DNA of 64,000 nt. Source: Planctomycetes bacterium MalM25. GTDB taxonomy: Bacteria; Planctomycetota; Planctomycetia; Pirellulales; Lacipirellulaceae. The stretch spans positions 1,945,001 to 2,009,000 of the forward strand of contig CP036424.1 of assembly GCA_007745835.1 (NCBI GenBank). Direction: 5' to 3'. The position numbers and the translations under genes were made by a program. The notes beneath the pieces are model-generated. The model saw only the letters and a list, made by a program, of their open reading frames with translations. It did no database searches and was not told the origin of the DNA. Of this stretch, positions 39,814 to 43,162 are shown one piece after another. Every line of letters starts with the position of its first letter. Position 1 is the first letter of the stretch.

Positions 39814-39887
<74 letters not shown>

Positions 39888-39960
39888 CTTTTTCTAAGTC
39901 CTGCTGATACCTAGCTTTAGGTAACCCATCGGCATCGGTGGCGCGGCTCGTTTTTGAGCG

Positions 39961-40052: not shown

Positions 40053-41348
40053 ATGCCCCATCTCAGGCACCAGCCGCCGAAATATCGGCTGCACAAAGGT
40101 TCTGGCCAAGCGATCGCCTCGCTTAACGGCCGACGCGTCTACCTCGGCAAGCACGGCTCCGACGAGAGCCAACGTCGCTACCGAGAGCTGCTTCAAGAAT
40201 GGGAGCGGCAACGCTGCTCCGACACGGACGCCGAGCCCCTTCCGCCGGCTTCCGATCTGGCCGAAGCGAGTCTAGCCGAAGTCGTGACCCCCAAGGCCCT
40301 GCGAGCCAAGCTCCGTGAAGGCGTCCCGGTCACGCTCGACGAACTCATCTTTGTCTACCGACGCCACGCCACGGCCTACTACGTTAAGAATGGCCAGGTG
40401 ACACGCGAAGCCGAAATGGTCGCTGAGGTGACCGGCTTGCTCGGCCGCAAGCACGGCGACGAGTACGTCGATGATTTCGGGCCCGTCAAGCTTGACGACT
40501 TCCGCGACGACCTGATCACCGACAAGGACTGGAGCCGGAAGTACATCAACAAGCAGCTGACCCGGCTCGTTGCGATGTTCAAGTGGGCGGTCGCTAAAGA
40601 GCTGTGCCATCCCGAGGTCCACGCCCGTCTCGCCGCCCTGGGAGGTCTCAAGAAGGGACGCACGGCGGCACGCGAAACCCCCGGTGTCACCTTGGTGGAG
40701 GACGCCCGCGTCATCGCGACGCTGCCCTATCGGTGCGTCGCCACATCTCCTGAAGGACTCGTGCAGCAAGTGGCGGTCAGCTACCTCAGGCACGGGTACT
40801 GGTTCTACGTCACGGGTCGGATCAAGCCAGGCAAGGATCCCGAAACGATTGATCGGAAGCTGATCGCCAAGTATGGCATCGACATCAGTGAGCGGGAACG
40901 CTCTCGCCGCAAGCGACGCGGGGTCGCGAACCTGCAATACATCCGCTACCAGAATTGGTTTGTCATCCTGGCGACCGAAGGGCACCACCCGTTCAAGCAG
41001 CAGGAACGCGGCCAGATCCGCGACGTGCGTCGAGTCTCAATCAAGTTTGAGGGGTACTCGATCAGCTATCGGCGCTGCGGTCAGACTCCCGTTGGTGGAG
41101 GTCCGCCGAAGTGGCGGTCGTGCGTGCGTATCGATAACGAGACCTACCGCGACCTCAAGGCGTTCTTCTTGAACCGGGCATGCCATCGGTCGGCTGAGAA
41201 CCCGTATGGTCCAAAAACTCCGCCGACGCGAAACGCCTTGATTTGTAGGCTTTGTGGACCGCCGGGTCCAGCGATTTCGGTCGAGAATCCTGGCCGAGAT
41301 TCGGGTAGATTGGGGGCACCGAGCATGCTTCGCAAGGAGTCCGCATGA
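40053..41348 (+). CDS. Chimeric ORF: tyrosine recombinase N-terminus joined to an unknown domain, then run into an insertion sequence
   Basis: One open frame from ATG 40053 (open back to 40026) combines three parts. Residues 1 to about 226 are a phage-type tyrosine recombinase N-terminal half: arm-binding start PKYRLHKGSGQAIASLNGR and core-binding region WSRKYINKQLTRLVAMFKWA, ending at RVIATLPY near 40730. The catalytic domain (R...HxR...Y) is absent. Next, about 155 residues (LRHGYWFYVTGRIKPGKDPE through FFLNRACHRSAEN) belong to a different, unidentified basic protein. From 41203 the frame reads into the left end of an insertion sequence and ends just past the transposase start. The product is unlikely to recombine DNA. 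The integrase piece marks an old island beside the tRNA. Confidence 0.7.
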   Translation: MPHLRHQPPKYRLHKGSGQAIASLNGRRVYLGKHGSDESQRRYRELLQEWERQRCSDTDAEPLPPASDLAEASLAEVVTPKALRAKLREGVPVTLDELIFVYRRHATAYYVKNGQVTREAEMVAEVTGLLGRKHGDEYVDDFGPVKLDDFRDDLITDKDWSRKYINKQLTRLVAMFKWAVAKELCHPEVHARLAALGGLKKGRTAARETPGVTLVEDARVIATLPYRCVATSPEGLVQQVAVSYLRHGYWFYVTGRIKPGKDPETIDRKLIAKYGIDISERERSRRKRRGVANLQYIRYQNWFVILATEGHHPFKQQERGQIRDVRRVSIKFEGYSISYRRCGQTPVGGGPPKWRSCVRIDNETYRDLKAFFLNRACHRSAENPYGPKTPPTRNALICRLCGPPGPAISVENPGRDSGRLGAPSMLRKESA

Positions 41349-42424
41349 CCACGCATCTGCAACCTTGGCACGTCGCTTTCACCTGGGCGGTGGGGTGGGT
41401 GAACCGGCAGCAACAGTTGGTGATCGAGTACCTCTGCGCCGAGAACCGAGTGCTCCGCGAGCAGACGGGCAAGAAGCGCATCCTGCTGACGGATGACCAG
41501 CGAAGACGGCTGGCGTTGAAGGGGAAGGAGCTTGGCCGCAAGGGGTTAGAGTCGATCGCTACTCTCTTCACGCCCGATACGATTCTGCGTTGGCATCGCC
41601 AGCTCGTGGCCCAGAAGTGGGACTACAGCCAGCGACGGAAGAGGGCAGGGCGGCCACCGATACCCGAAGAAGTCACGAAGTTGATCGTGCGGTTTGCGAA
41701 GGAGAATCGTTCCTGGGGCTACGGGCGGATTCAGGGAGCGCTAGCGAACCTGGGCCACGACGTCTCGGAATCGACTGTTGCGAATGTCCTGAAAGCCAAT
41801 GGCTTAGAGCCGGCTCCGATCCGCAAGAAACGAACGCCTTGGAAGGAGTTCCTCAAAGCCCACTGGGACCAGCTCTCAGCGGTCGACTTCACGAGTGTGG
41901 AAGTTTGGACGCCGCGAGGCCTGGTCACCTACTACCTGCTGTTCGTGATCCAGCCGAAGAGCAGGAAGGTCTGCTATGCCGGAATGACGACCTCGCCGAA
42001 CGACGCCTGGATGCAGCAGATCGCAAGGAATCTTATTGATGACGAGGACGGCTTCCTCAGGGACTCGCGGCTGCTGCTAATGGACCGTGACACGAAGTTC
42101 TCTGCCGCGTTCCGCCACACGCTGAGCCTGAGGGGCGTGCATGCACTCCGGCTTCCGCCGAAGACGCCGAACCTGAACGCTTACGTCGAGCGTTTCATGC
42201 GGAGCATCAAGCAGGAGTGTCTCGACCGGATGATCTTCTTCGGCGAGGACGCGTTGCGTAACGCCATCGGAGAGTACGTGGCTCACTACCACACCGAACG
42301 CAATCACCAGGGAATCGAGAATCGGCTGATCGAAGAGCCTGGCGAGCCGCCGCCGGACGGTGTAGTCCAGTGTCGCGAGCGGCTTGGCGGGATGCTCAAG
42401 CACTACCACCGAGTGGCAGCCTAA
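41345..42424 (+). CDS. DDE transposase with integrase (rve) core
   Basis: A 359-aa transposase of the IS3/IS481-like retroviral-integrase superfamily. The N-terminus is helical (VGWVNRQQQLVIEYLCAENR), followed by a helix-turn-helix region with RSWGYGRIQGALANLGHDV. The catalytic core has the three acids: D in LSAVDFTSVEVW (about 178), D in LLMDRDTKFS (about 246) and E in NLNAYVERFMRSIKQE (about 281). ATG 41345 has an AAGGAG ribosome binding site. All core motifs are present and no stop interrupts it, so it may be active. I know close relatives as multicopy genes in planctomycetes and acidobacteria, but cannot name the IS family with certainty. Confidence 0.9.
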   Translation: MTTHLQPWHVAFTWAVGWVNRQQQLVIEYLCAENRVLREQTGKKRILLTDDQRRRLALKGKELGRKGLESIATLFTPDTILRWHRQLVAQKWDYSQRRKRAGRPPIPEEVTKLIVRFAKENRSWGYGRIQGALANLGHDVSESTVANVLKANGLEPAPIRKKRTPWKEFLKAHWDQLSAVDFTSVEVWTPRGLVTYYLLFVIQPKSRKVCYAGMTTSPNDAWMQQIARNLIDDEDGFLRDSRLLLMDRDTKFSAAFRHTLSLRGVHALRLPPKTPNLNAYVERFMRSIKQECLDRMIFFGEDALRNAIGEYVAHYHTERNHQGIENRLIEEPGEPPPDGVVQCRERLGGMLKHYHRVAA

Positions 42425-42435
42425 GAGGCATCAGG

Positions 42436-42693
42436 ATGTTTCGTTGGCTGAGAGATCGATGGGTGAAAGCGAGAGAAATCGCTCGGCTTTACGAAGAGTC
42501 TCGAAGGCTGAAGGATGAACTCGAACGTCTAACCGGGGAATCGGTGAAGCTGACCGATGAAGAACGCTCTCAACTGAGCCAAGCAGCTGAGGGACTCGAC
42601 AGAAAAACGCTAGAACGGCTTTCTGCATTCGACCCCAATGTCATCTTGCCGGACAAATCGAGCGAGTCTCCAAGTAGCGATACGAAACAATGA
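42436..42693 (+). CDS. 85-aa charged helical protein inside the insertion sequence
   Basis: A small frame starting 11 bases after the transposase stop, with an AAGAGG ribosome binding site, and ending 15 bases before the right terminal repeat. The protein begins FRWLRDRWVKAREIARLYEE and is highly charged and helical, probably a coiled coil, with a Ser-rich tail. It lies within the terminal repeats, so it appears to travel with the element, either as an accessory transposition factor or as a passenger. No family is recognised. Confidence 0.6.
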   Translation: MFRWLRDRWVKAREIARLYEESRRLKDELERLTGESVKLTDEERSQLSQAAEGLDRKTLERLSAFDPNVILPDKSSESPSSDTKQ

Positions 42694-42725
42694 ATGGACG
42701 TTTGTTCGAGTATTTGGACCATACG

Positions 42726-43162
42726 CGCCCTCGGTATAGGCATCGTTGAGTCCAAAGCAAGGGCGATGCGAGTAGGACGCTAGGCTGTCCCAAGAAGGTG
42801 TCGAAGATCCACTGCTGTTCGATGACGACGTTCTCAGAGGTCGCCGATGATCAGCGGGCACTTGATCTGGCCCTCACGGGCCTGCCGACAGATAGCGCCT
42901 TCCTTATGGGTGGCTTGAACTGGCGGACGTGCAGAGCGATGGCCCCCTGCGTTGGCAATAATCAGGAGCGAACCTAACAGGGCTACGACGCCACGACCAG
43001 TCTGGGCAAGATCCGCTGGCATGTCGAGCGGGCGACAAACAGATAGCGCCGTGGAAACCCGACGAGACCGAGAACCCGTCATCTGCGAAGCCCTCGTTCA
43101 ACTCGCATCCGCACTTGTCGCTTACCCAAACACTCGTCGCCTGAACGTTCTGATCAAACGTT
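42726..43162. other. Gap between the insertion sequence and the BNR_4 gene
   Basis: The first 24 bases (to TGA 42747-42749) look like the displaced 3' end of the gene split by the insertion sequence. The remaining bases hold no convincing gene. A direct repeat cagatagcgcc occurs near 42890 and near 43040. A minus-strand frame at 42834-43082 exists but does not look coding with any confidence. Confidence 0.4.

Follow-up and report, generated by a model that had tools for sequence, protein, structure and literature searches.

The genome of Planctomycetes bacterium MalM25 contains, within a stretch of 64,000 nucleotides (contig CP036424.1, positions 1,945,001 to 2,009,000 of the forward strand; hereafter the window, with positions counted from its first letter), an open reading frame (ORF) in which the N-terminal part of a tyrosine recombinase runs into a second domain, which is in turn interrupted by an insertion sequence. 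The locus raises the question of what the second domain is, and whether the frame encodes a genuine two-domain protein or a relic. All three layers described in the original prediction, which was made from the sequence alone, were found. By profile comparison the second domain is AcpG, which has a gene of its own that naturally starts at the joint, and not a fusion domain; the chimera is probably a one-off wreck, an ordinary end state of an island.

Architecture of the chimeric frame

Residues 1–227 share 72% identity with an integrase encoded in a 442-residue open frame (L045), and a PHROGs integrase profile matches the first part of the protein (E = 5e-5); in Pfam this part finds Int_N only, below threshold. 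The motifs RPGEV and QVYAE, located in the catalytic half of intact relatives, are absent from the chimeric frame, in agreement with the earlier description of a recombinase N-terminal half devoid of catalytic residues. Since the catalytic half is missing, the chimera should not recombine DNA. The fusion, placed in frame near 40730 by the original prediction, was located at that site (Table 1). Intact integrases continue past it as TLP(Y/H/C)LPEIVADMVRF..RPGEV, and stand-alone acpG genes start with M-x-Y-R-C at the position where the window reads L-P-Y-R-C; the stand-alone copies and natural start that had been anticipated for the second domain therefore exist, with the start at the fusion point.

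The fused protein was used as a query against 43 genomes of the family, its own included. Among the matches listed, those to integrases that reach the joint stop at about residue 224–230, with a few at 239–248, and come mostly from frames of 400–500 residues; those to the second domain begin mostly at residues 222–236, and a match running across the joint occurs in this genome only. In a survey of 392 genomes of the phylum, with at most four candidates scored per genome, matches at E ≤ 1e-10 were obtained in 54, its own included, and the fused form was again seen only here. A conserved protein in which both parts always occur together was rejected on these listed matches. Two matches that looked as if they covered both parts were opened and proved to be a frameshifted integrase (G409) and a stand-alone acpG with stops upstream (G024); the rows opened did not include the integrase matches extending to 239–248 or a pair of stop-containing domain matches (G010).

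Identification and distribution of AcpG

A profile of 33 family members was aligned by hhalign to five Thermus AcpG proteins with a probability of 91.4 (E = 9.1e-7) over 169 colinear columns, and a 43-member alignment matched Thermus AcpG at E = 5.1e-6, compared with 0.27 for an integrase control. The original prediction was thus right in recognizing a second domain, and the obscure role assigned to it gives way to a named family. The main text of PMC8637638 describes AcpG as a protein associated with circularly permuted (CP) group II RNA and without homology to any other known protein class; the same text contains no word beginning with "planctomyc". No further paper on AcpG as a CP-RNA-associated protein was found in a literature search that covered few subscription papers and little of bioRxiv. 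The second domain has no above-chance match in Pfam, NCBIfam or PHROGs; sequence comparison of AcpG with the PDB gave a best E of 0.061, and phage records yielded nothing useful.

An AcpG-like domain was detected in 42 loci on genome contigs, mostly in planctomycete-labelled records, together with two from Competibacteraceae, one from Omnitrophota and the rest without a label. Most complete copies span about 200–260 residues; they usually start with M-x-Y-R, extended to M-x-Y-R-C in closer relatives, and in some a GGAGG precedes the start. The window's genome holds a single copy of the domain, and acpG is intact in a genome of the same genus (G009). Six plasmid records carry an AcpG match, one from a planctomycete and five from cyanobacteria; Thermus was not reached by single-sequence tblastn over plasmids. 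Among 44 stretches compared around acpG, 19 share an upstream ORF family, of which one tested member, together with a gene on plasmid pK2D_1, matches RepA (PF10134), and a ParA-like family (one member tested) lies near acpG in five stretches. The plasmid records and the RepA-type gene adjoining acpG in many loci agree with the suggestion that the domain belongs to mobile elements.

The neighbourhood of acpG also contains, in 11 distinct loci (L101:10655-10748, L007, L010, L011, L015, L016, L023, L033, L035, L036 and L106), a conserved ~93-bp repeat (GCGTTAGGGAT...AACGCCC), with two copies each in L033 and L036. It does not occur in the window, and its loci gave no Rfam match to it at the gathering score; a stem is predicted, with two-sided change at only 1 of 26 pairs.

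CP group II RNA upstream of acpG

Rfam models of group II domains 5 and 6 (D5-D6) matched upstream of acpG, on its strand, in 7/16, 3/8, 2/4 and 5/18 of the sources searched, the two misses in the set of four being Thermus and Polaromonas plasmids, and these matches led to PMC8637638. According to its main text, CP group II RNAs have the order D5-D6-D1-D2-D3-D4, carry the splice motifs NU and GGGCG, and reside on plasmids.

A D5-D6 model of 60 columns was built from 13 loci and run on 57 sources. Of 45 usable loci, defined as acpG with at least about 1.6 kb of upstream sequence, 36 (13 in the model and 23 not) have D5-D6 upstream on acpG's strand at E ≤ 1e-10, and the distance to acpG in matching loci is about 1.0–1.7 kb. 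L106 matched at E = 1e-5, and no D5-D6 was found near acpG in L008, L028, L040, L043 and L101. Five loci with less than 1 kb upstream (L022, L024, L025, L027, L034) were searched without a hit and stand outside the 45, L004 and L019 were not searched, and a second, incomplete acpG copy in L104 was not counted. Under strict filters, D5-D6 is present in 16 of the 43 family genomes. Between the most distant pairs, the conserved block extends from up to about 80 nt before D5 to about 700–750 nt beyond its start. The order of D6 end, linker and GGGCG was found in 27/32 cases by the first pattern; a pattern ending in GGGCGA, loosened after the misses had been seen, matched 34/37 with linkers of 12–110 nt, and also matched 44 of 2000 random stretches.

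In L015, L032 and L039, D5 is itself split by a canonical group II intron, and the sequence resumes after the nested intron at the same part of D5 (L032, ~1986-2655; L015, to 1871; L039, to ~640). Both ends of the intron are visible only in L032, and the L015 copy encodes reverse transcriptase, maturase and HNH domains. In such nested ribozymes, the active site of the outer RNA would require the inner intron to be spliced out.

No D5-D6 was detected in the window or in the remainder of its genome, where a degraded copy could be missed, or in the three other genomes of the genus, and a DNA comparison with the RNA region in the nearest relative gave no match, an empty result that shows nothing by itself. 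In G009 (L101:8236-9255), DNA similarity to the RNA of relatives begins only about 1 kb before acpG and D5-D6 went undetected; the RNA looks as though it had lost its 5' end. The reach of the models is limited: the main text of PMC8637638 places a CP RNA on pTT8, which is matched neither by Rfam group II models (E up to 5) nor by the D5-D6 model, so distant members are missed. Weak matches of the D5-D6 model occur on three other Thermus plasmids (E 0.1–0.7) and on pPNAP05 (E = 0.026).

Predicted fold of AcpG

AlphaFold2 modeling from the 43-member alignment gave a predicted local distance difference test score (pLDDT) of 91.5 and a predicted template-modeling score of 0.83; a fold predicted for the window domain from its sequence alone (pLDDT 45) was set aside. 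Foldseek ranked a retron reverse transcriptase (RT) first (E = 3.9e-3, template-modeling score 0.40), and no PDB entry reached an E of 0.001 or lower. VIA-align, which scores only Foldseek's candidates, placed 8h2h at the top (Z 10.2, 198 aligned residues, root-mean-square deviation (rmsd) 4.2), with AcpG residues 1–211 aligned. Rows 1–10 and 12 are group II RTs or G2L4 RTs, the latter of which we take to be group II-like (Z 10.2–8.2, rmsd 3.3–4.2), followed by DRT9 and Prp8 (Z 8.2 and 8.1) and then by viral RNA polymerases up to Z 6.3. Values of Z 7–8 are common for models without a clear match; a Z of 10.2 with so uniform a top list stands above this background, and is not proof. Part of the structural match is the common palm, as viral RNA polymerases score too, and the predicted order of strands and helices fits, in our reading, a palm followed by a thumb. 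A viral fold library gave a best E of 0.028, with several rows corresponding to viral replicases.

The alignment was then inspected for polymerase residues. At columns 33, 77, 78 and 79, the putative equivalents of the catalytic aspartates, D occurs in 0, 3, 4 and 1 of 43 members, respectively, the pairing of columns being taken from a weak profile alignment and, for column 33, from our own reading. AcpG appears to lack the catalytic aspartates of motif A and YxDD. The best hhalign match of AcpG to RTs (E = 0.017, score 26.2) falls at RT5-RT7, setting YIRFGSWFLLL on YVRYADDFLL and IRFEGYSI on KFLGYEV, and was exceeded by one of 100 column shuffles (27.2). The RT5 and RT7 motifs resemble YADD and FLGY. 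Other pairs of alignments gave E 0.037–0.15, and the match moved to a different place when only the three closest RTs were used; the score of a first attempt (E = 0.067, score 21.6) was not exceeded by any of 30 shuffles (best 21.2). The Pfam RT model matched none of 33 AcpG members, and an RT ancestry of AcpG is not proven by sequence profiles.

Taken together, the predicted fold and the apparent lack of catalytic aspartates suggest a maturase relic. On the basis of this fold and of the gene association, AcpG most likely serves the CP group II ribozyme as a protein partner, being reduced, RT-like, maturase-like and devoid of polymerase residues. We lean slightly toward a more specific proposal, in which AcpG would be a miniature, catalytically dead RT derived from a group II intron-encoded protein and would act as the maturase of the CP ribozyme, a bacterial counterpart of Prp8, the window holding a broken, integrase-fused copy.

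Origin of the chimera

We consider it probable that the chimera is the worn left end of an island, in which a deletion joined the integrase to acpG and an insertion sequence then landed in the acpG part. In the ancestral island at tRNA-Met, an intact tyrosine recombinase would have stood beside the tRNA, with the CP group II RNA and then acpG further in, all on one strand. Integrase codon ~225 would have been joined in frame to the first acpG codons by a deletion that took away the integrase's catalytic half and also, provided the ancestor resembled its relatives, the CP RNA. The insertion sequence would have followed, the 3' end of acpG being lost then or separately. Such an arrangement exists in G363, a genome of the same class, where tRNA-Met (7998078), integrase (7998338), D5 (8024822) and acpG (8026240) all lie on the plus strand within 28 kb; a single deletion would therefore explain the joint. 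What is inferred here is the deletion itself, the chronology and a short stretch of sequence shared at the breakpoint.

Several points weigh against this scenario. No genome shows an intermediate with the deletion. The overlap at the break depends on the parents' letters: L046, the nearest acpG, has only TAT in common with the integrase side, while an acpG start of the ATGCCCTAT type would share 8 bp with it. The CP RNA may have been lost before the fusion, because the nearest acpG relative (G009) likewise has no detected D5-D6. Finally, there is a small chance that the joint is an assembly join.

The original prediction had suggested that the domain may itself have captured or truncated the integrase. 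In a rival scenario of this kind, a mobile unit carrying acpG would have inserted into the integrase gene, whose 3' half was lost later. The occurrence of acpG on plasmids and beside RepA- and ParA-type genes, and the coincidence of the fusion point with the acpG start, speak for capture, but the island yielded no C-terminal half of an integrase (the four matches in the genome lie elsewhere, in frames of 404–433 residues), and capture would not explain the undetected CP RNA, which precedes acpG in most relatives. We regard capture as unlikely, a deletion within a one-strand island such as that of G363 being the simpler explanation.

The codon changes bear on whether AcpG was instead added to the DNA-binding half of an integrase, with selection maintaining the result as a true two-domain protein. 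Neither half of the chimera contains a stop. In the acpG part (154 codons), changes unique to the window comprise 5 nonsynonymous and 18 synonymous, compared with 6 and 24 unique to L046; in the integrase part (220 codons) they comprise 4 and 16, compared with 12 and 22 for L045, or 2/15 and 7/17 with a second outgroup. The frame open over the joint and the mostly synonymous change in both halves could be taken as signs of selection, but they also fit a young wreck in recent decay, and much of the synonymous excess may be older than the fusion. Moreover, the acpG part is cut by the insertion sequence and no longer has its final third, to which the long C-terminal helix in the predicted model belongs. 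With the fusion confined to this genome among the matches listed, recruitment is very improbable. An assembly artefact, for which the single occurrence of the fusion and the lack of reads could be cited, is just as hard to credit, since the genome is one contig of 4.72 Mb and both halves are oriented, and placed relative to the tRNA, as such an island would predict.

Insertion sequence and island context

The inverted ends of the insertion sequence (arms 41196-41220 and 42708-42732) are 84% complementary, and the seven left ends compared, this one included, all read CGTATGGTCC. One related copy (81%) occurs in this genome and four matches (77–85%) in two other genomes of the family; when shorter and weaker matches are included, the element is found in 11 of 43 family genomes. 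The transposase resembles IS481 and IS3 models, at 102 (102.3) of 224 and 94 of 160 bits, and because it scores under both curated cut-offs (NCBIfam for IS481), the element is assigned to no family. The longest other copy of the element matches the small ORF behind the transposase only as far as ~42539.

Removal of the element together with one CG had been proposed to restore the frame up to a stop at 42747. The arithmetic holds, but restoration of the gene was rejected: the nearest acpG relative (L046, 231 residues) extends about 70 residues past the point where the window copy ends, and the 60 bases that follow the element on its right scored 7, 9, 8 and 6 against the 3' ends of four acpG relatives, within the range of shuffle controls (means ~8, maxima 12–13).

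Table 1. Features of the chimeric locus and its surroundings (window positions)
Feature	Position	Strand	Basis or remark
Open frame, two domains: tyrosine recombinase N-terminal part, then AcpG-like part	40053-41348	+	ORF list
N-terminal half of tyrosine recombinase, catalytic half missing	40053..~40727	+	homology to intact integrases
Fusion joint CTGCCCTATCGG, in frame	40722..40733	+	junction of integrase T-L-P-(Y/H/C) with acpG start M-x-Y-R
AcpG-like gene, encoding roughly the N-terminal 70% of the protein, 3' end truncated	40728..41204	+	stand-alone relatives, family profile
Insertion sequence, ends (CG)TATGGTCCAAA...	~41203..42725	+	exact ends uncertain by CG on each side
Transposase in insertion sequence	41345-42424	+	
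Small extra ORF, ~85 residues, behind transposase inside insertion sequence	42436-42693		
Short tail to stop at 42747	42726..42749	+	no similarity to acpG 3' ends
tRNA-Met (CAT), integration target of the island	39814..39888	+	ARAGORN, Rfam
48-bp attachment (att) repeat, anticodon loop to just past tRNA 3' end	39846..39893	+	

DNA similarity to the window from tRNA-Met toward the integrase was found in 12 of 38 loci compared. A second copy of the att repeat lies at genome position 2049982, 65.1 kb downstream, followed by a second broken integrase start; the window therefore holds the left part of the island. No intact integrase of the chimera's group was found inside the island. The first 22 bp of the repeat recur at 2051783, and the 1.8-kb stretch between these two att cores, directly behind the island (genome 2049982-2051783; L166:982-2804), contains the N-terminal remnant of another integrase. 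This stretch looks like the product of tandem islands at one tRNA.

Comparison with known systems

The AcpG described here resembles Thermus AcpG in its colinear profile match, in size (about 200–260 residues in most relatives versus about 260 in Thermus), in the proximity of CP group II RNA in the relatives and in its association with plasmids. The window copy differs in being fused to half an integrase and truncated at its 3' end, with no CP RNA found nearby. The RNA of the relatives shares with the CP group II ribozyme the succession of D5-D6, a short linker, GGGCG and conserved RNA, and a location upstream of acpG; it was not detected in the window or its genome. The predicted fold of AcpG is like that of group II intron RTs and maturases and of the RT-like domain of Prp8, whereas AcpG is much smaller, appears to have no conserved YADD-type aspartates and resembles them in sequence only at borderline E values (0.017 at best). 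With respect to the tyrosine recombinases of planctomycete tRNA-Met islands, the half in the window occupies the usual place beside the tRNA but is missing its catalytic half. The inserted element shares transposase likeness and terminal inverted repeats with IS481/IS3-type elements, but scores below the cut-offs.

The larger yield of this locus lies beyond the chimera, in a large, mainly planctomycete branch of AcpG, most usable loci of which have a CP group II RNA a short distance upstream of the gene. An RT-like predicted fold is thereby proposed for a protein that had no relatives known to its describers. For the cellular needs of the CP ribozyme, this turns into a testable question, namely whether AcpG binds and aids CP group II RNA as maturases aid introns.

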